Shown: positions 24,939-45,132 of the stretch, piece after piece
Layout of the letters: every line of letters starts with the position of its first letter
Numbering within the stretch: the first letter of the stretch is position 1
Assembly (NCBI GenBank): GCA_016744415.1
Contig: JADGEL010000001.1
Location: 744,001-808,000 of the forward strand
DNA length: 64,000 nt
Direction of reading: 5' to 3'
Source of the DNA: Flavobacteriaceae bacterium
GTDB taxonomy: Bacteria > Bacteroidota > Bacteroidia > Flavobacteriales > Flavobacteriaceae
Translations under genes and position numbers: made by a program
Notes under the pieces: generated by a model
Databases searched by the model: none
What the model was told of the DNA's origin: nothing
What the model saw: the letters and a program-made list of their open reading frames with translations, nothing else

Positions 24939-26177
24939 TTAATTAGATTTTAAGCTTTTAATTTCCTCAATCAATTTTTCAAGGTGATCAACCTCTACAT
25001 GGTCCATAATCACCACCTTATACCATTTGTTATTGCCGTCATGTGTTTCTGGAACTAAATCGTATTTTTTCTCAACTTTAACAGGGATATCCTCAGATTT
25101 CATAGTAACAATATTCATATGAGGATTGCGGTAATAGTCAATGTTTAAATTATCTAATTGATCACAAAACCATTTTGTTCTCATCAATAGTACAGAAATT
25201 TTCTCAAACCATTTATGTGGGCCATAACTAAATAGAATCATCCAAACAGCCATTGCATTTGCTCCAGACCTACTTCCACAAAGAGTTAAATCCATACCGT
25301 TTACATACTGAGCTTCTTTGGTTAATACATTTTGAATTAGCCCTTTTTTACAGATAAAAACTCCTGTTCCGTAAGGCGCTTGTAACATTTTATGAGCATC
25401 TATGGTAATAGAATTTATATGTGGATTGTTTAATCCAATATCTTCTCGACCCTTACTAAATGGATAAATAAATCCACCAAAAGCGGCATCAATGTGAATT
25501 TTAAAATCCACATTTAGCTCTTCCATAACATCAACAAATAAGTTAGGGTTATCTACAGAACCAAACATAGTTGTTGCCATATTTGATATAACTATAAAAT
25601 GTTTTTTTCCTTGCTCTTTTGCAGTTTTAATTAAATCAAAAAGAACTTTTCTTTGAATCAAACGCGTTTCAAAATCTACCGGAACAATAATGTGATCTAA
25701 ACCTAATAAGTTAGCTCCTTTTGGGATTGAGTAGTGTGTATCTTCAGATGCAACAATAGCAATTTCGTTAAAACTGGCATTCTCATTATTTACATAATGA
25801 TTTCGATAAACCCAAATGGCTTGTATGTTAGCTTCTGTACCGCCAGTGGCTATATATCCGTCAAAATTGTCAGGTTCGCAGTTAAAAAAATCAACAGCTA
25901 AAACATTTATAACTTCTTTTTCTAATTCATGCGTACCGCTAAAAGCATGCTCAGATTCACCCAAAGTATGGCACCCAATATGATTTGGGTTTGAGACATA
26001 GGCTCTTAATAAAGGGGCATCCTTTAAAAATGGGGCATTGTCATAAAATACGTTTCCATCTAGTTTTGATGCGGGATAACCCAAAGAAATATCATTCGAA
26101 AAATCGACATTGCGTTTAAGAGAAGTATCAATTTTTTTTGCCAATTCTTCTTTAGAATATTTTTTCCAATACTGCAT
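24939..26177 (-). CDS. PLP-dependent group II amino-acid decarboxylase
   Basis: A 412-residue cytoplasmic enzyme. The PLP lysine is Lys263 in ITIDAHKMLQAPYGTG, with His in DTHYSIPKGANLLG, Asp in HIDAAFGGF and the TGGTEANIQA phosphate-binding loop. It resembles bacterial histidine decarboxylases and aspartate/tyrosine-type decarboxylases; the substrate cannot be fixed from sequence. It stands alone with its own -7 box and is convergent with lspA (1 bp between stops). Confidence 0.85.
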   Translation of the reverse strand: MQYWKKYSKEELAKKIDTSLKRNVDFSNDISLGYPASKLDGNVFYDNAPFLKDAPLLRAYVSNPNHIGCHTLGESEHAFSGTHELEKEVINVLAVDFFNCEPDNFDGYIATGGTEANIQAIWVYRNHYVNNENASFNEIAIVASEDTHYSIPKGANLLGLDHIIVPVDFETRLIQRKVLFDLIKTAKEQGKKHFIVISNMATTMFGSVDNPNLFVDVMEELNVDFKIHIDAAFGGFIYPFSKGREDIGLNNPHINSITIDAHKMLQAPYGTGVFICKKGLIQNVLTKEAQYVNGMDLTLCGSRSGANAMAVWMILFSYGPHKWFEKISVLLMRTKWFCDQLDNLNIDYYRNPHMNIVTMKSEDIPVKVEKKYDLVPETHDGNNKWYKVVIMDHVEVDHLEKLIEEIKSLKSN

Positions 26178-26199: not shown

Positions 26200-26255
26200 C
26201 GAGTTATCTCTAAATAAAAGATATTTATATCATTTAATATAGAGGGGTATTAGTC

Positions 26256-36048: not shown

Positions 36049-36092
36049 AAAAAAGGGGTAAAATTTGAAACGTCAAATTTTACCCCTTTTTT
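36049..36092 (+). terminator. Strong terminator downstream of rseP
   Basis: A 20-bp perfect inverted repeat with a 4-nt loop (AACG, 36069-36072). The stem runs AAAAAAGGGGTAAAATTTGA and its complement, ending in a T-run. The A-run on the other side makes it bidirectional. Confidence 0.9.
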
Positions 36093-36199
36093 TATGCTTG
36101 TTAATAACCATTTCATAACTCGTTTTCAATCTTATAAAATGGATAAAATTACTTTTTATATTTATATCCGACTATTTAGTCTTTTAATAAAAATATCAA

Positions 36200-38598: not shown

Positions 38599-38612
38599 AT
38601 GATAATTATCAT
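38599..38612. promoter_or_regulatory. FNR/CRP-like palindrome upstream of norC
   Basis: A perfect 14-bp palindrome ATGATAATTATCAT. Its core TGAT-N4-ATCA agrees with the FNR/DNR half-sites (TTGAT-N4-ATCAA). It lies about 110 bp upstream of the norC ATG. Confidence 0.45.
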
Positions 38613-38643
38613 ATTCTATATAAATCTAATCAACGTAATTTGT

Positions 38644-38667
38644 ATAAAAGACCAAAAGGTCTTTTAT
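38644..38667. promoter_or_regulatory. Putative NO-regulon operator, norC copy
   Basis: A palindrome ATAAAAGAC-CAAAAG-GTCTTTTAT. The 9-bp arms are identical to those of the palindrome upstream of ric (43394-43417), with the same 6-bp spacing. A weak -7 box (TATATTTA, 38688-38695) lies 21 bp downstream. Confidence 0.65.
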
Positions 38668-38722
38668 GTAGCAAAAATATAATTCGTTATATTTACAAAC
38701 TAACTAATAAAAACAATAAAAC

Positions 38723-39181
38723 ATGTTATCTAAGAAACAAGCAAGGGCTTTCTTTCTGGGAGGAACACTGGTTACATTTCTAGCATTTATAGGATTAACC
38801 ATTTTTTCTTTATCAAAGGATGTCGATCAAACCAACAGTGAAAACATCACTGAAGCTGTTGTGCGCGGAAAGAATCTTTGGGATTCAAATAATTGTATGG
38901 GTTGCCATACAATATTAGGCGAAGGAGGTTATTACGCTCCAGAATTAACAAAAGTGATTGACCGAAGAGGAAAAGGGTATATCAAAGCCGTATTAATGAC
39001 TCCTGTTTCTTGGGAGCCAAACGGAAGAAAAATGGTAGCCTACGGATTTAGTAACGATCAAGCTGAAGACATAATCGCTTTTTTTGATTGGATTGATGAT
39101 ATCGATCTAAATGGATTTGGAGAAGTTGTAGGTATAGACAGAACAATTTCACCATTAGCAAAAGATAAAATAACTAACTAA
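38723..39181 (+). CDS. norC: Nitric oxide reductase subunit C (cytochrome c)
   Basis: A 152-residue membrane-anchored cytochrome c that passes electrons to NorB. One N-terminal transmembrane segment (about 8-29) is followed by the heme motif NCMGCHTILGEGGYYAPEL; a Met ligand is likely in RKMVAYGF. It forms an operon with norB (10 bp gap). The gene pair reduces 2 NO to N2O, in denitrification or NO detoxification. Confidence 0.95.
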   Translation: MLSKKQARAFFLGGTLVTFLAFIGLTIFSLSKDVDQTNSENITEAVVRGKNLWDSNNCMGCHTILGEGGYYAPELTKVIDRRGKGYIKAVLMTPVSWEPNGRKMVAYGFSNDQAEDIIAFFDWIDDIDLNGFGEVVGIDRTISPLAKDKITN

Positions 39182-39191
39182 ACTAACAAAG

Positions 39192-40529
39192 ATGAAATAT
39201 AAATCACAAAAAGTAGCATATTGGTTTTTTGCGCTTTCTATGCTCCTATTCGGACTACAAATTATATATGGTTTTATAATGGGATTTGCACATGCAGGCT
39301 TTGATGGACTCCATGAGTTTATTCCGTTTAACACAGCAAAAGCAGTACACCTTAATTTATTGGTAGTTTGGTTACTATCTGGTTTTATGGGTGCCGCATA
39401 TTATATTATTCCAGAAGAAGCACAAACAGAATTGGTAAGTGTAAAGTTAGCCTATGTTCAACTAATCAGTTTAGCATTGGTTGGCGTTGCAGCAATTGTT
39501 GGCTTTCACTTTAATATTTGGGAAGGGCGTAAGTTTTTAGAAATTCCTAGAGGACTCGATTTCTTAGTAGTAGTTAATGTATTGCTATTTTTAGGAATCA
39601 TTTTAGTAACATTATACAAAGGAAAACGTAGAACTACTACAGCGCTTGTACTCTCAATGGGGTTATTATTTGCAGCTTTATTGTATTTGCCAGGGATGTT
39701 ACCTTTTGATAGTCAAGTAACAGATTCTTTCTTCAGATGGTGGGTTGTTCATCTTTGGGTAGAGGGTGTTTGGGAATTAATTATGGGAGGTATCTTATCA
39801 TTCTTATTGATAAAATTGACTGGTGTTGATAGGGAAGTTATTGAAAAATGGTTATATGTAATTGTTGGATTGACCTTTTTATCAGGAGTTTTAGGTACAG
39901 GCCATCATTATTATTATATAGGTGTAAATAAAATTTGGTTGATTGTTGGTGGAATTTTCTCAGCATTAGAGCCACTTGCATTTTTAGCGATGGCGTTATT
40001 CGCAGTAAACATGTACAGAAAAGGTGAAAAGAAACATCCAAATAAATTAGCATTGTATTGGACATTAGGTGCTGCAATTGTATCTTTTGTTGGTGCAGGA
40101 TTGTTAGGATTTGCACATACGTTACCACAAACAAATTTATATACACATGGTACTTTGGTTACAGCAATGCATGGTCACCTTGCATTTTGGGGAGCATATG
40201 CTATGATAGTTTTAGCAATTATAAGTTACTCTTTGCCAAATATGACAGGACGTAAATTATATGATAGTTCATTAGGTAGAATGGCATTTTGGTTCTCAAA
40301 CATTGGGATGATTGGAATGACAGTTGCCTTTGGAGTTGCAGGTGTTGCGCAAGTGTATTTAGAACGTATTATGAAAATTGAATTTATGGAAGTCCAAAAA
40401 ATGGTAGAAGTTCATTTTATGATACTAATAGTTTGTGCTACCTTTTTTGCAACTGGAATCATACTTTACATGATTGATTTTTACAAACATGGCAAACCAA
40501 ATGACGAAGCATTAGAAAGAACAAACTAA
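39192..40529 (+). CDS. norB: Nitric oxide reductase subunit B
   Basis: A 445-residue catalytic subunit of cNOR with about 12 transmembrane helices. Heme and FeB ligands are in AKAVHLNLLVVWL (His), WWVVHLWVEGVWEL (His and the conserved Glu), GTGHHYYYIG (two His) and TAMHGHLAFWGAY (His pair). This is the cytochrome c-dependent type, as norC is adjacent; the quinol-oxidising qNOR has an extra N-terminal domain that is missing here. Confidence 0.96.
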   Translation: MKYKSQKVAYWFFALSMLLFGLQIIYGFIMGFAHAGFDGLHEFIPFNTAKAVHLNLLVVWLLSGFMGAAYYIIPEEAQTELVSVKLAYVQLISLALVGVAAIVGFHFNIWEGRKFLEIPRGLDFLVVVNVLLFLGIILVTLYKGKRRTTTALVLSMGLLFAALLYLPGMLPFDSQVTDSFFRWWVVHLWVEGVWELIMGGILSFLLIKLTGVDREVIEKWLYVIVGLTFLSGVLGTGHHYYYIGVNKIWLIVGGIFSALEPLAFLAMALFAVNMYRKGEKKHPNKLALYWTLGAAIVSFVGAGLLGFAHTLPQTNLYTHGTLVTAMHGHLAFWGAYAMIVLAIISYSLPNMTGRKLYDSSLGRMAFWFSNIGMIGMTVAFGVAGVAQVYLERIMKIEFMEVQKMVEVHFMILIVCATFFATGIILYMIDFYKHGKPNDEALERTN

Positions 40530-40547
40530 TAAAGATTAGGTTAGTAT

Positions 40548-40653
40548 GAAGGTCTAAAAAGCAGATTTTCCTCATGAGTTATAAGTCTAACGTAATGTTC
40601 TTTTAGAATATGACTTTATTTCTTGAGTATGCTTTTTAGGCCTTCTTTTTTTT
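40548..40653 (+). terminator. Long imperfect hairpin with T-run between norB and norQ
   Basis: The outer 16-bp arms, GAAGGTCTAAAAAGCA at 40548-40563 and TGCTTTTTAGGCCTTC at 40630-40645, pair apart from one G-U. The inner parts CTCA...ATAAGTC and GACTTTATTTCTTGAG also pair. A run of nine T after the first C follows at 40646-40653. It looks like an extended terminator or a structured element. Confidence 0.6.
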
Positions 40654-40668
40654 GCAGATATGTGACCA

Positions 40669-41490
40669 ATGGTTACAACAAAAAAACTACAAATGAAAGA
40701 AACGAAGGAAAAAATTATAAATGCACCCTATTATTATCCTGTTGATAAAGAGGTTGAAGTTTTTGAACATACACACAAAAACAAACTCCCCTTTTTACTC
40801 AAGGGGCCAACAGGTACTGGTAAATCTAGGTTTATTGAGTTTATGGCACATAGATTGGATAAAAAATTAATTACCATTGCATGTCATGAAGAGACCTCTT
40901 CTACAGATTTAATAGGACGCTATATTATTAAAGGCGCAGAAACTATTTGGTTAGATGGGCCTTTAACAACTGCCGTAAAAGAAGGTGCCATAATCTATTT
41001 GGATGAGATTGCTGAGGCAAGACCAGATGTTATTGTTGCTATCCACTCATTAACCGATCACCGCCGAGAGTTGTTTATTGACAAACTTGGTAAAACTATC
41101 AAAGCGCATGAAGGCTTTTTATTAGTGGCATCTTTTAACCCTGGTTATCAACGTGGATTTAAGGAATTAAAACCATCAACACGTCAACGCTTTGTAGCTA
41201 TTTCTTTTGATTATCCAGAAGCAAAGATTGAGATAGAAGTTTTGGTGAATGAAACAGGAATCGAAAAAGACATCGCCAAGAAATTAGTAAACATTGCAAC
41301 AAAAATCAGAAACTTAACTGAGTTAGGGTTGACAGAAACCGTATCTACCAGATTGTTAGTAGATGCTGCAAAATTGATTAAAAGCGGATTGCCAAAAAGA
41401 TTATCAGTAAAAGTAGCTGTTGTAGAACCTTTAACCGATGATATTGAAGTTGTTGATGCTTTAACTGATTTATGTGATTTAATGATATGA
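40669..41490 (+). CDS. norQ: NorQ-type MoxR AAA ATPase
   Basis: A 273-residue AAA+ ATPase needed for cNOR maturation, probably FeB insertion, with NorD. Walker A is GPTGTGKSRF, Walker B AIIYLDEI, and sensor 1 lies in LLVASFNPGYQRG. The start is either ATG 40669 or ATG 40693 (MKETKEKI); no box decides it. It is separated from norB by a 139-bp gap filled by the long hairpin and is followed by norD. Confidence 0.88.
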   Translation: MVTTKKLQMKETKEKIINAPYYYPVDKEVEVFEHTHKNKLPFLLKGPTGTGKSRFIEFMAHRLDKKLITIACHEETSSTDLIGRYIIKGAETIWLDGPLTTAVKEGAIIYLDEIAEARPDVIVAIHSLTDHRRELFIDKLGKTIKAHEGFLLVASFNPGYQRGFKELKPSTRQRFVAISFDYPEAKIEIEVLVNETGIEKDIAKKLVNIATKIRNLTELGLTETVSTRLLVDAAKLIKSGLPKRLSVKVAVVEPLTDDIEVVDALTDLCDLMI

Positions 41491-41566
41491 TTAGGTTGTA
41501 GAGTTTAGTTGCTCGCTATTAGCAACAAAACCATCAACTGCCAATCATCAACAAAAACCTAATTTA

Positions 41567-43342
41567 ATGTTCGAATTTGAACCAGACGCATATATTTTTA
41601 CCAAGTTTGCCAATTACTTTAAAAGACGTAAAAAGGCAAAAGAGGAGGATATTGCGCATGCGGTAAAGTTACTTGACATTAAACCTAGGCTCACTATTTT
41701 TGCGAGAGCAGTAACAGGGAATGCCATTGAAATTTTTGAAGCAGAACGAGAGGGAGGTTACAAAAACAACAACTTTTTTCTCCCATCAAAATATGCTGAG
41801 TTTAACACTGTAGAAGAAAACATCTCTTTTTATTTGTACAGAGTTTTATATTTATCTGTTCAAAAAAATCTAAATTTAAATTGGGAGGACGATCAAGATC
41901 ATGAAACAATTAAGTCAAGAAAAATGGCTCAAGAAAAATCAAACGAAGTCTTAAAAAATTTGTTTCACCAATTTCCGATAACACAAGAATATTACAATCG
42001 ATTTATTGGACATTATAAAAATAAATCAACAAAAAAAGAAGCACCTGATTTTTCGTTTATTTACGGAAAATGGATGTACAATTCGCCTGAAGAGGCATCA
42101 TCAAAAACACTAAAAAACTTTACAGATAAAGTTAAGACAGCGAACAAGGAGGAAATCAAAACTATTTTAAAAGCCAAAGCAGTTGAAGAAATTAAATCGG
42201 TTCAGATAGATAAAAAACAATTGGAGGACGCAGTACTACAACATCAATTTGAAAAAGTAGAAACTGCTGAAGAGTTTGGGGGCAATTGGCGAGATATGGA
42301 TGGTGATGATGAGTTGGCAGACCACGAGAATGCTCTTGAAGATTTAAATATGAAATATACTGTTCGTGTTGATGATACCGCACATTCAGTTTATCAAGCA
42401 GATTTTGTTGAGAACACAACTATCTCAGAAAGTTCGGAAGCAACATCAACCAATTTTTATTTGAGCTACGACGAATGGGATTATAAAAAGCGTGCTTATA
42501 AAGAGGGTTTTTGCAAGGTATATCCAAAACCTATTATTGAAACTGATGTTCCGTATTACAAAAAAACTCTAGCTAAAAACAATTCTACTTTGGTTGGTTT
42601 ACGTAAAATGTTGAGTACAGTTAACAACAAATTTCAGCAACAAAGACGTCAAACTACTGGTGAAGAATTTGATTTATGCGCCATTACTGATTTGTATGTA
42701 GATGTGCATTCGGGGCATACACCATCAGAAAAAATATACTTATCAAAACGCAAAAAGGAAAAGGATTTATCCATTTTACTATTGTTAGATGTTAGTTTGT
42801 CAAGTGATGGTTATGCTGCAGGAAATAAAGTAATTGAAGTTGAAAAGCAAGTCTCTATTTTATTTGGAGAGATTTTGGACGAGTTCAATATCGATTTTTC
42901 TATCAACTGCTTTTATTCTAAAACAAGAAACCACTCAACCTATTTAACAGTTAAAGAATTTGACGAAGATTGGAATCGTGCCAAATATAAAGTAGGTGCT
43001 GTTGAACCAAATGGATATACTCGTATCGGAGCTGCATTAAGGCATTCAGGAGCTTTGTTAGATGCTAGAAGCACCAAAAATAAATGGGTCATCTTAATAT
43101 CTGATGGTAAGCCAAATGATTATGATAAGTATGAAGGTAAGTACGGAATTAATGATGTAAAGCAAGCCTTGAGAGAATTAAATGAGCGTCAAATAAATTC
43201 GTATGCCTTAGCCATAGAGGCAAATGCAAAATATTATTTGCCCCAAATGTTTGGGCAAAATCATTATCAAATATTAACAACTCCAGTAGAATTACTACAA
43301 TCTCTGGTAAAGTTGTATGAAAAAATCAAACATCAATCTTAA
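41567..43342 (+). CDS. norD: NorD-type von Willebrand factor A protein
   Basis: A 591-residue cytoplasmic partner of NorQ. The C-terminal vWA domain has the MIDAS motif LLLDVSLSS (DxSxS), the threonine in NGYTRIGAALRH and the Asp in LISDGKPNDY. The N-terminal half is helical and acidic. Together with the ATPase it activates NorCB. A weak hairpin (43362-43380) follows the stop. Confidence 0.88.
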   Translation: MFEFEPDAYIFTKFANYFKRRKKAKEEDIAHAVKLLDIKPRLTIFARAVTGNAIEIFEAEREGGYKNNNFFLPSKYAEFNTVEENISFYLYRVLYLSVQKNLNLNWEDDQDHETIKSRKMAQEKSNEVLKNLFHQFPITQEYYNRFIGHYKNKSTKKEAPDFSFIYGKWMYNSPEEASSKTLKNFTDKVKTANKEEIKTILKAKAVEEIKSVQIDKKQLEDAVLQHQFEKVETAEEFGGNWRDMDGDDELADHENALEDLNMKYTVRVDDTAHSVYQADFVENTTISESSEATSTNFYLSYDEWDYKKRAYKEGFCKVYPKPIIETDVPYYKKTLAKNNSTLVGLRKMLSTVNNKFQQQRRQTTGEEFDLCAITDLYVDVHSGHTPSEKIYLSKRKKEKDLSILLLLDVSLSSDGYAAGNKVIEVEKQVSILFGEILDEFNIDFSINCFYSKTRNHSTYLTVKEFDEDWNRAKYKVGAVEPNGYTRIGAALRHSGALLDARSTKNKWVILISDGKPNDYDKYEGKYGINDVKQALRELNERQINSYALAIEANAKYYLPQMFGQNHYQILTTPVELLQSLVKLYEKIKHQS

Positions 43343-43393
43343 TTTATTTGTTCGTTAAAAGCATTTTTTTATTAAAAATGTTAAAGTTTAATA

Positions 43394-43417
43394 ATAAAAG
43401 ACAATATTGTCTTTTAT
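43394..43417. promoter_or_regulatory. Putative NO-regulon operator, ric copy
   Basis: A perfect 24-bp palindrome ATAAAAGAC-AATATT-GTCTTTTAT, 4 bp upstream of the -7 box TACCTTTG. It would cover the -33 region, which suits a repressor. It is the partner of the site at 38644-38667. Confidence 0.7.
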
Positions 43418-43421
43418 TTGA

Positions 43422-43429
43422 TACCTTTG
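43422..43429 (+). promoter_or_regulatory. -7 element of ric
   Basis: TACCTTTG matches TAnnTTTG. It lies 12-18 nt upstream of the ATGs at 43442 and 43448. Confidence 0.6.
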
Positions 43430-43447
43430 TACTTTAAATTAATGATT

Positions 43448-44161
43448 ATGCAAATAACAAAAGAAAATACAGTAGCTGAGGTCGTTTCAAAAAACCTTGG
43501 ATCTGATCATGTTTTTAGCAAATACCAAATTGATTTTTGCTGTGGAGGCGGAGATACACTCGAAAAAATTTGTGAAGAAAGTGGAGTAAAATTTGAAGTG
43601 TTAAAACAAGAAATAGAAACAATAAATAGCAAAATTTCAGGGTCTCCAAATATTGAAGAATTTGATATTCCAACTTTGATTAATGAGGTTAAGGATAAGT
43701 ATCATACAGTAATTAGCGATTCTTTTTATGAAATATCACCTTATGCTGCAAAGGTTGCAAATGTACATGGAACTGTGCATAAAGAATTAGTTGAAATTAA
43801 TGAGCTATATAAAAGTGTTGCACTTGTTATTAATAAAACTTTTAAAGATTCAATATTGGAATTGTATCCAGTTATTAATGAAATTGTAGAAGCAAGTGAA
43901 AAATCTAAAGAGATTTCAATAGCAGATTTAGAAGTTTTTAAAAAAGGTATTGAAAGAAATGAAATAGCTCAAAAAATTATTGGAGACTCATTTAAGCAAA
44001 TATCCAATTTATCATCTAATTACTTAATTCCAACTGATGCATGTAATTCATATACATATTTATATAAAAATTTAAAGAATTTGGAGCATGAAGTTCATAA
44101 ATATATGCATTTTGAAAAAAATGTATTAATACCAAAAGCATTAAATATTATAGCACAATGA
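43448..44161 (+). CDS. ric: Iron-sulfur cluster repair di-iron protein (RIC/ScdA/YtfE)
   Basis: A 237-residue protein that repairs Fe-S clusters damaged by NO or oxidants. The N-terminal ScdA_N domain has YQIDFCCGGGDTL. A hemerythrin-like four-helix domain carries His and Glu ligands (YHTVI, VANVHGTVHKELVEI, HEVHKYMHFEKNVLI). I choose ATG 43448 (MQITKENTVAEVV); ATG 43442 is also possible, but the TTG at 43418 is upstream of the promoter. It overlaps the next gene by 4 bp (ATGA). Confidence 0.93.
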   Translation: MQITKENTVAEVVSKNLGSDHVFSKYQIDFCCGGGDTLEKICEESGVKFEVLKQEIETINSKISGSPNIEEFDIPTLINEVKDKYHTVISDSFYEISPYAAKVANVHGTVHKELVEINELYKSVALVINKTFKDSILELYPVINEIVEASEKSKEISIADLEVFKKGIERNEIAQKIIGDSFKQISNLSSNYLIPTDACNSYTYLYKNLKNLEHEVHKYMHFEKNVLIPKALNIIAQ

Positions 44162-45132
44162 ATTCATTTTTGCCAACAGTAGCAAAACTTCCAGAAGGGC
44201 ACCCAGTAAAAGTTTATTACAAGGAAGGAGCCTTAATACAAGAGATTTTATTAGAATTATATGATGCTGATCCAGCAGAGGATTTTGAAAAATATTTCAA
44301 TATATTTAATCAGTTAACAACTATAGAAAAGCGATTTAAACGAAAAGAAAATCAATTATTTCCGTATTTAGAAAAACATGGTTGGGAAGGGCCAAGTCAA
44401 GGAATGTGGTCTTTTCATGATAATTTGCGTGATCAAATTCGATTGTTAAACGGATATAATTTAGAAAAAAACACAGATAAAATTACAGATAATATTCCAT
44501 TTTTAATTGAAGGTATAAAGCGTCTAATGTCTATTGAAGATGTAAAGTTATTCCCCAATTCTCTTAATTTATTATCAGAAGAAGATTGGGAAGAGTTTTA
44601 TATTGGTGATGAAGAAATAGGTTGGATGTTAAAAGAGAAGCCTGCTCCTTATCCAAAAATAGAACCAGCATATATTCACCCAAGTGAAGATTTTACAGAG
44701 CGTAAATTGTCTTTTTCTACTGACAATACTTTTCATTATGACGAAGGGTATATGACTCCCGAACAAGTGAATTTGTTATTGAAATTTTTACCAATTGATA
44801 TTACCTATGTTGATGAAAATGATAAAGTGATTTTTTATAACCGTGGAGATGATCGTGTTTTTGCTAGGTCAAAAGGAATTATAGGTAGAGAAGTAAAATT
44901 CTGTCATCCACCAAAAAGCGTAGGGATGGTTTTACGTATTGTTGATGAGTTTAGAGCAGGCACAAAAGATGTTGCTGAGTTTTGGTTTAACTTTAAGGGA
45001 CGCGTTATACATATCCGTTATTTTGCGATTCGTGATAATGAAAAGAACTATAAAGGCGTCATAGAAATGAGTCAGGATATTACCGAAATTCAAAAACTTG
45101 AAGGGCAAAAGCGCTTGCTAGATTGGGATTAA
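44158..45132 (+). CDS. Hemerythrin/PAS protein of the DUF438 kind
   Basis: A 324-residue cytoplasmic protein. The N-terminal half is hemerythrin-like (RFKRKENQLFPYLEKHGW and MWSFHDNLRDQI with likely His/Glu ligands). The C-terminal half (about 205-320) is a PAS domain (LPIDITYVDENDKVIFYNRG, GREVKFCHPPKSVGMVLRIV) that may bind heme or another ligand. It is translationally coupled to ric by a 4-bp overlap, which suggests a sensor or partner in NO stress. Confidence 0.85.
   Translation: MNSFLPTVAKLPEGHPVKVYYKEGALIQEILLELYDADPAEDFEKYFNIFNQLTTIEKRFKRKENQLFPYLEKHGWEGPSQGMWSFHDNLRDQIRLLNGYNLEKNTDKITDNIPFLIEGIKRLMSIEDVKLFPNSLNLLSEEDWEEFYIGDEEIGWMLKEKPAPYPKIEPAYIHPSEDFTERKLSFSTDNTFHYDEGYMTPEQVNLLLKFLPIDITYVDENDKVIFYNRGDDRVFARSKGIIGREVKFCHPPKSVGMVLRIVDEFRAGTKDVAEFWFNFKGRVIHIRYFAIRDNEKNYKGVIEMSQDITEIQKLEGQKRLLDWD

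Follow-up and report, generated by a model that had tools for sequence, protein, structure and literature searches.

Which regulator reads a palindrome that stands, with identical arms, ahead of two nitric oxide (NO) genes in a flavobacterial genome? The genes, norC and ric, code for a subunit of NO reductase and for an iron-sulfur (Fe-S) repair protein, and lie in a 64,000-nucleotide stretch of DNA from a Flavobacteriaceae bacterium (GenBank assembly GCA_016744415.1), referred to here as the window. The source genome, labeled G000, comprises 3,133,816 bases in 6 contigs (labeled C1, C2 and so on). Judging from the sites and their gene partners, the palindrome is very probably the operator of an NsrR-like Rrf2 factor of the Bacteroidota, a repressor with an operator of its own, and the best candidate in this genome is an Rrf2 protein encoded outside the window, at C2:650717-651181.

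The strict pattern, ATAAAAGAC-N6-GTCTTTTAT, has 9-bp arms and 18 defined bases; its relaxed form is WWAAAAGAY-N6-RTCTTTTWW and its core AAAAGAY-N6-RTCTTTT. Both copies were found where a preliminary description of this DNA had placed them, with the same arms and different 6-bp centers. That description would have been refuted by a motif common at random positions; the strict pattern proved to occur at exactly two places in the whole genome, the norC and ric promoters. When up to 3 mismatches are allowed, the window still contains these two places only, whereas shuffled windows average 0.15 and none of 100 attains two. Perfect 9-N6-9 inverted repeats number five in the window, and arms are shared only within the norC/ric pair; the remaining three, with unrelated arms, are at window positions 36059, 45193 and 61651. 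The whole genome holds 14 places at up to 3 mismatches (2 exact, 2 with two mismatches and 10 with three). Numerically the relaxed motif is no rarity; the distinctive points are the two exact copies and their placement. Since a count alone is no proof of a motif, the case depends on the placement of the sites.

When 84,980 species genomes were scanned for the 18 defined bases, at least 115 loci were found; the locus counts given below are among the 115 loci listed. Bacteroidota account for 102 of the 115, with Flavobacteriia, Bacteroidia, Chitinophagia, Sphingobacteriia, Saprospiria, Cytophagia and unplaced members represented. A locus was assigned when a gene of a reference set (NO/denitrification or Rrf2) lay within 300 bp downstream of the site, and the controls (n=2,215) were intergenic positions drawn at random within the same loci, no closer than 1 kb. 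By this measure 57 of the 115 listed loci were assigned, compared with 145 of the 2,215 controls (Fisher 6e-33), although part of the full reference set was picked from genes seen adjoining sites, which counts against this figure. With references from the source genome only (nirK, norC, norB, two ric genes and one neighbor of an Rrf2 gene) the numbers were 36 of 115 and 98 of 2,215 (Fisher 5e-19). The assigned loci comprise 57 of the 102 from Bacteroidota and none of the 13 others, so the latter may be chance occurrences.

The neighbors bear out the earlier proposal that the site belongs to an NO/denitrification regulon. They are nirK (16), Rrf2 (16), ric-like (11), norC (10) and hmp (4) and, more rarely, globin (3), hemerythrin (3), cupin (2), a nos cytochrome c (1) and norB (1), some listed loci holding two assigned genes. 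For all 11 ric-like neighbors the best match is filed as DUF2249, and all 11 match ric too. Of the genes that the description had suggested checking for sites (hcp, nosZ, nirK, globin and Rrf2- or CRP-family genes), sites were found for nirK, globin, Rrf2 and nos, no match to the five CRP/FNR proteins of the source genome adjoined a site in the listed loci, and hcp is unassigned, no search having been aimed at it.

An Rrf2 gene adjoins the exact palindrome in 16 of the 115 listed loci but in only 22 of the 2,215 controls, and some of these form divergent pairs with ric, hmp, nirK or a gene for a nos-type cytochrome c. In all 26 aligned palindrome-linked Rrf2 proteins Cys92, Cys99, Cys105, Pro106 and His108 are invariant, with the spacing C-x6-C-x5-C-P-x-H. 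The three cysteines are also present in the candidate of the source genome, L033. By curated score the candidate protein belongs to Rrf2: PF02082 gives 76.9 bits on L033 (cut-off 30), above the superfamily threshold, and the NCBIfam family rrf2_super (cut-off 73.3) gives 82.6 for L033 and 92.4 for a second protein, L056. Members of the superfamily have a winged helix-turn-helix, then a cluster loop and then a long helix. The AlphaFold2 model of L056 (mean predicted local distance difference test score 92.2) shows helices at residues 4-20, 28-35, 39-51 and 108-124 and strands at 56-58 and 64-66, with the cysteines in a loop, an arrangement compatible with that of the family. Asp8 is a ligand in Streptomyces coelicolor NsrR; the residue near position 8 is Glu in most palindrome-linked (group A-like) proteins and Lys in L033 and most of group B.

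A profile of ten palindrome-linked Rrf2 proteins was run over 149 Flavobacteriaceae genomes. The matches fall into class A (165-205 bits), class B (122-157 bits) and a remainder below 95; the classes were split by score and typed by hand, and one match of 116 bits, interrupted by an internal stop (G137), was excluded. Class B occurs in 23 of the 26 norB genomes (two weak norB matches of 28% identity, in G020 and G150, being left out) and in 43 of the 72 nosZ genomes (3 under the family cut-off included). It is present in 47 of 76 genomes with norB or nosZ and in 4 of 73 with neither (Fisher 4e-14), whereas class A shows no link to norB (10 of 26). Several B members lie outside the fetched set, and G089, B by score, groups with A in the tree. 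There class B splits into a B1 type, many members of which diverge from a nos-type cytochrome c gene, and a separate B2, whose genes, in the loci inspected, have norCB, ric, nadA or nrdDG close by. Of the 256 open reading frames (ORFs) in 48 regions surrounding group B genes, 62 have an upstream site with up to 2 mismatches, divergent pairs being counted twice; by eye these are about 28 Rrf2, 19 nos-type lipoproteins, 6 nadA, 4 norC, 3 ric and 2 others. The sites before nadA-like genes, near B2 Rrf2 genes, are in L211, L221, L225, L230, L235 and L243, and nadA, an Fe-S enzyme, is a possible regulon target.

The source genome has two Rrf2 genes. The 154-amino acid product of one, L033, belongs to clade B2 (SH-like approximate likelihood ratio test 98) and groups with the Rrf2 proteins encoded directly upstream of norCB in G151, G083 and G016, from three other genera. 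The other, L032, was rejected as the regulator: it scores 75 bits with the A1 profile, compared with 122-237 in the groups linked to NO, and among the named NCBIfam families CymR fits it best, under the cut-off. Relatives of L033 in the same genus include L317 (92% identity) and L319 (96%), and the B2 genes L317, L320, L321 and L323 each show, just ahead of their own -7 box, AAGAY-N6-RTCTT or a sequence close to it. Five genomes of the genus have norB, and four of these have an A or B Rrf2 together with an intact norC palindrome. In G012, the only one of the five without an A or B Rrf2, the norC site is one base shorter and its right arm lacks the G, while the FNR-type box is kept; this comparison is a single case, and it is weakened in that the Rrf2 gene may be unassembled, since G012 is about 92% complete.

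Weaker sites precede other denitrification genes of the source genome. The second ric gene (ric2) has a 2-mismatch site upstream, nirK, in a cluster ordered nirK - nirV-like - SCO1 - ric2, has a 3-mismatch site, and the nos operon (fasciclin-like, cytochrome c-like, nosZ) has AAGAC-N6-GTCTT at C2:716926-716949. Ahead of nrdG there is a more degenerate site (see the table), and nrdG-like genes elsewhere with a site just ahead are found in L140 (exact palindrome) and L232.

Among the 26 Flavobacteriaceae norC promoters, 17 contain a relaxed site with up to 2 mismatches; a spacer of 6 fits these 17, and other spacers fit 4 at most. By class B status the site is present in 16 of 23 genomes with class B and in 1 of 3 without. 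A second element accompanies it: an FNR-type box (TGAT-N4-ATCA, up to 1 mismatch) is situated 20-27 nt, mostly 23, before the -7 box (TANNTTTG, up to 1 mismatch) in 18 of the 26, where shuffles expect 0.5. The norC promoter of the source genome fails this test because its -7 box has two mismatches. Its layout is TGATAATTATCA, 23 nt, GTAATTTG, one base and the palindrome, and the probable -7 box, although weak, is in register with those of same-genus relatives; the norC promoters of G002, G007 and G008 hold the palindrome as well. The preliminary description had put the norC -7 box about 20 bp downstream of the palindrome, which is probably wrong, the likely box being immediately upstream. A placement suited to a repressor, which it had seen at ric, is plausible.

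At the exact-palindrome loci the FNR-type box was tested at 22-24 nt before the -7 box. Among the listed loci it is present in 16 of 16 nirK, 6 of 10 norC and 1 of 1 nos promoters (23 of 27 together) but in none of 23 detoxification promoters (ric-like, hmp, hemerythrin, cupin and globin), a contrast with a Fisher value of 1.7e-10; the other promoters gave 0 of 1 for norB, 1 of 16 for Rrf2 and 6 of 70 for unassigned genes. The palindrome starts 21 nt before the first -7 base in 12 of the 16 nirK promoters and 11-18 nt after it in the other 4 nirK, in 6 norC and in the nos promoter. Measured from the predicted -7 boxes, both placements are core-promoter positions, which suit repression. In the source genome the FNR-type box stands 23 nt before TANNTTTG at nirK, ric2 and nos, and the ric and nrdG promoters contain none at the tested spacing. 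Genome-wide, an FNR-type box followed after 22-25 nt by TANNTTTG occurs at 9 places, with 0 in the reversed control, and a small FNR regulon might be readable from them. One of the nine, C4:688567-688609, is near an FNR-like gene (about 3 kb) and beside an ATPase-like gene.

What the sequences show is the sites with their positions and conservation, the gene partners and the co-occurrence; from these and from the family we infer binding, an Fe-S cluster, an NO response and a direction of regulation, as follows. An Rrf2 dimer would bind AAAAGAY-N6-RTCTTTT and, lying across the -33/-7 to +1 region, would hold off norCB, ric and its own gene. NO would then attack a cluster on the three conserved cysteines, perhaps with the histidine, and release the protein; the cluster is made likely by the cysteine pattern, and NO as the signal is suggested by the targets and the family. 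The nirK-nirV-like-sco1-ric2 cluster and the nos operon would join through sites further upstream, beside the FNR-type box, with either repression or an interplay with an FNR-type activator as the effect. Respiratory denitrification genes would in this way answer jointly to low oxygen and NO, whereas NO by itself would govern most of the NO repair genes. Such a scheme, with an AND gate for respiration and an NO-only gate for repair in most cases, is suggested by the way in which the FNR-type box is partitioned. In its widest form the proposal is that across the Bacteroidota an Rrf2 protein, neither NsrR nor IscR, with an IscR-like site of three cysteines and a histidine, serves as NO gate for the entire denitrification chain, N2O reductase included. 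Together with an FNR-type activator, set at a fixed distance, it would form an AND gate, and the NO operator would stand by itself at most NO repair genes, nadA and nrdDG. We advance this wider proposal tentatively, at somewhat less than an even chance.

Several observations weigh against the assignment of the palindrome to an Rrf2 repressor. At every relaxed setting tried, the motif is no commoner than the pattern read backwards, also a palindrome: at up to 3 mismatches the source genome has 14 places forward and 16 backwards, and other relaxed counts gave 10 places in 7 of 60 genomes and 12 in 12, 6 and 7, and 19 and 22 in 14 genomes, respectively. Among the listed Bacteroidota loci 45 of 102 have no assigned gene. 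Seven of the 23 class B norB genomes lack a norC site at up to 2 mismatches, G176 has the norC site and no group B protein, and 7 of the 76 genomes with nosZ or norB have no A or B Rrf2. Most group A Rrf2 genes fetched from Flavobacteriaceae do not carry the present operator at up to 3 mismatches, and the Rrf2 gene of the source genome, like L319, has a degenerate upstream site with one arm changed (AAGAY-AAGAAT-CTCTT). The division of the FNR-type box between respiratory and repair genes is broken by ric2, which has one too. In the source genome the palindromes of nirK, ric2 and nos lie upstream of the FNR-type box, positions that by themselves speak for neither direction of regulation.

The operator and the protein were compared with known systems. 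NsrR is likewise an Rrf2 protein with three conserved cysteines and targets such as hmp, ric and nor/nir, and chain 5n07, an NsrR, is the best solved relative by sequence (E 3.6e-6). The NsrR operator is gATGyAT-N5-ATrCATc in the excerpted text of PMC1274295, however, not AAAAGAY-N6-RTCTTTT, and on NF008240 (cut-off 182 bits) L056 scores 51.8 and L033 29.5. In addition, the candidate has C-x2-H after the third cysteine, absent from Escherichia coli NsrR, and its sites are also found at nos, nadA and nrdG and are often paired with an FNR-type box. Since both the curated score and the operator fail, it was not filed as NsrR, although it probably works like NsrR. The other consensus sequences in the excerpt of PMC1274295 are wTGTGAnnnnnnTCACAw and TTGACnnnnGTCAA for HcpR, GTAACnnnnGTTAC for HcpR2, TTGATnnnnATCAA for DNR and GT-N7-AC for NorR. 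The palindrome matches none of these nor that of NsrR, in agreement with the preliminary description for NsrR, HcpR and NorR. Clade II nos scaffolds are enriched in Rrf2 regulators whose role is called difficult to predict in the accessible portion of PMC6264515; Rrf2 genes stand beside nos there as here, and no operator is given in that portion. We recognized no earlier description of AAAAGAY-N6-RTCTTTT in the open-access literature, as far as its searchable text extends.

An Rrf2 protein might read the palindrome and yet be an activator, or a broader Fe-S or oxidative stress regulator like IscR, instead of an NO-released repressor. Its C-x6-C-x5-C-P-x-H motif is closer to the C-x5-C-x5-C-x2-H of E. 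coli IscR, with three cysteines and the histidine, than to E. coli NsrR, nadA- and nrdG-like targets would fit, and so would the sites of nirK, nos and ric2, which precede the FNR-type box. The scores nevertheless lie under the IscR cut-offs, with 56.3 (L056) and 50.4 bits (L033) on TIGR02010 (cut-off 207.55) and 34.4 and 44.1 on NF008110 (cut-off 275). Assignment gave nirK, norC, ric, hmp, globin, hemerythrin, cupin and nos as targets and no isc/suf genes, though no systematic search was aimed at these, and the core promoter is overlapped at norC, Flavobacterium nirK and several Rrf2 genes. We regard this alternative as unlikely, but as one to be taken seriously.

Considerably less probable is a CRP/FNR-family NO regulator of the HcpR or DNR kind with an altered recognition helix. 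Such proteins control NO and denitrification genes elsewhere (PMC1274295, in excerpt), the source genome has five CRP/FNR matches, AAGAC-N6-GTCTT shares a 16-bp geometry with TGTGA-N6-TCACA, and the companion TGAT-N4-ATCA box is itself of the FNR/DNR type. The palindrome is nonetheless unlike the HcpR, HcpR2 and DNR sequences in that excerpt, and many denitrification promoters have a separate FNR-type box. Moreover, none of the 137 ORFs downstream of the 115 listed palindromes matches the five CRP/FNR proteins at E 1e-4, a test blind to CRP/FNR proteins unlike these five, whereas 16 are Rrf2; two CRP/FNR-like genes lie elsewhere within listed loci (L073, L104). That the palindrome acts as RNA, in a 5' leader hairpin or a terminator, is hardly credible: the norC palindrome is downstream of its probable -7 box, where it would be transcribed, and its arms could pair, but at ric, nirK, nos and same-genus Rrf2 genes the palindrome is upstream of the -7 box, and the arm sequence itself is kept.

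Clade II nosZ genes are numerous in Bacteroidota, which are regarded as important N2O sinks. With a defined operator, a candidate family and a simple promoter logic, the way in which the phylum controls NO and N2O turnover can be tested directly, and its regulon can be predicted from genomes. Beyond the preliminary description, the analysis contributes Rrf2 as the probable regulator family, a candidate gene and the paired FNR-type box; beyond the Rrf2 genes already noticed beside clade II nos clusters (PMC6264515, in part), it contributes the operator, the candidate regulator and the promoter logic.

Table 1. Promoter elements and genes at the norC and ric sites, in window coordinates.
Feature	Position	Strand	Remarks
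Degenerate operator ahead of nrdG	36164..36187	+	ATATCCGACTATTTAGTCTTTTAA; 4 mismatches to exact arms; 12 bp before gene (named by eye)
FNR-type box upstream of norC	38600..38611	+	TGATAATTATCA; 23 nt ahead of probable -7 box
Probable norC -7 box	38635..38642	+	GTAATTTG; two mismatches to TANNTTTG; position inferred from same-genus relatives
Predicted operator palindrome, norC	38644..38667	+	ATAAAAGAC-CAAAAG-GTCTTTTAT; just downstream of probable -7 box, across presumed transcription start
norC, NO reductase cytochrome c subunit	38723..39181	+	ORF; named by position ahead of norB
norB, NO reductase catalytic subunit (presumed)	39192..40529	+	ORF
AAA ATPase-like and VWA-like genes downstream of norCB	40669..43342	+	ORFs
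Predicted operator palindrome, ric	43394..43417	+	ATAAAAGAC-AATATT-GTCTTTTAT; ends 4 nt ahead of -7 box
Putative ric -7 box	43422..43429	+	TACCTTTG; inferred from sequence
ric, ScdA/YtfE-type Fe-S repair protein	43442..44161	+	ORF; alternative start 43448

The norC protein gives generic cytochrome c matches only in NCBIfam. The next ORF, which we take to be norB, gives weak matches only, to cytochrome oxidase subunit I, and has homologues of 79-92% identity in 25 other genomes of the Flavobacteriaceae sample. The AAA ATPase-like and VWA-like genes are presumably of the norQ/norD type. The ric protein matches TIGR03652 with E 1.4e-44 and 152 bits, under the curated cut-off of 204.7. A PAS-containing gene (window 44158-45132) overlaps the end of ric, and its relative in G002 has an operator-like site of its own 53 bp upstream (L326).

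The remaining relaxed places in the source genome were dismissed. The 2-mismatch place at C4:122017 falls within a gene, and the nine 3-mismatch places other than that of nirK fall within or next to genes that show no evident link to NO or, for L011, have no listed ORF adjoining; C1:145073, at the end of a murB-like ORF, and C2:392058, at the start of a patatin-like ORF, are probable chance matches. One of the nine, in L010 (1501-1524; C2:824966), lies 67 bp before an Mrp-like gene, by eye of the Fe-S carrier type, and may be a weak regulon member or a terminator. In the window, ATAAAAGATATTTATATCATTTAA at 26214-26237, one mismatch from the relaxed operator and 37 bp upstream of a pyridoxal phosphate-dependent decarboxylase-like gene (24939-26177, minus strand), may mark a regulon member or be due to chance.

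Among the 45 unassigned Bacteroidota loci listed, nrdG-like (L140), fasciclin-like (L113) and HydE-like genes (six loci) are suggestive. The HydE-like radical S-adenosylmethionine genes, named by eye, begin 47-74 bp after the exact palindrome in L070, L079, L110, L114, L121 and L127, and five of the six diverge from an acyl-CoA synthetase-like gene. Some Flavobacteriaceae group A Rrf2 genes (L185, L188, L192, L201, L316) have a variant upstream site, ATARCGGAY-N6-RTC..., which suggests a paralogue with a shifted operator.

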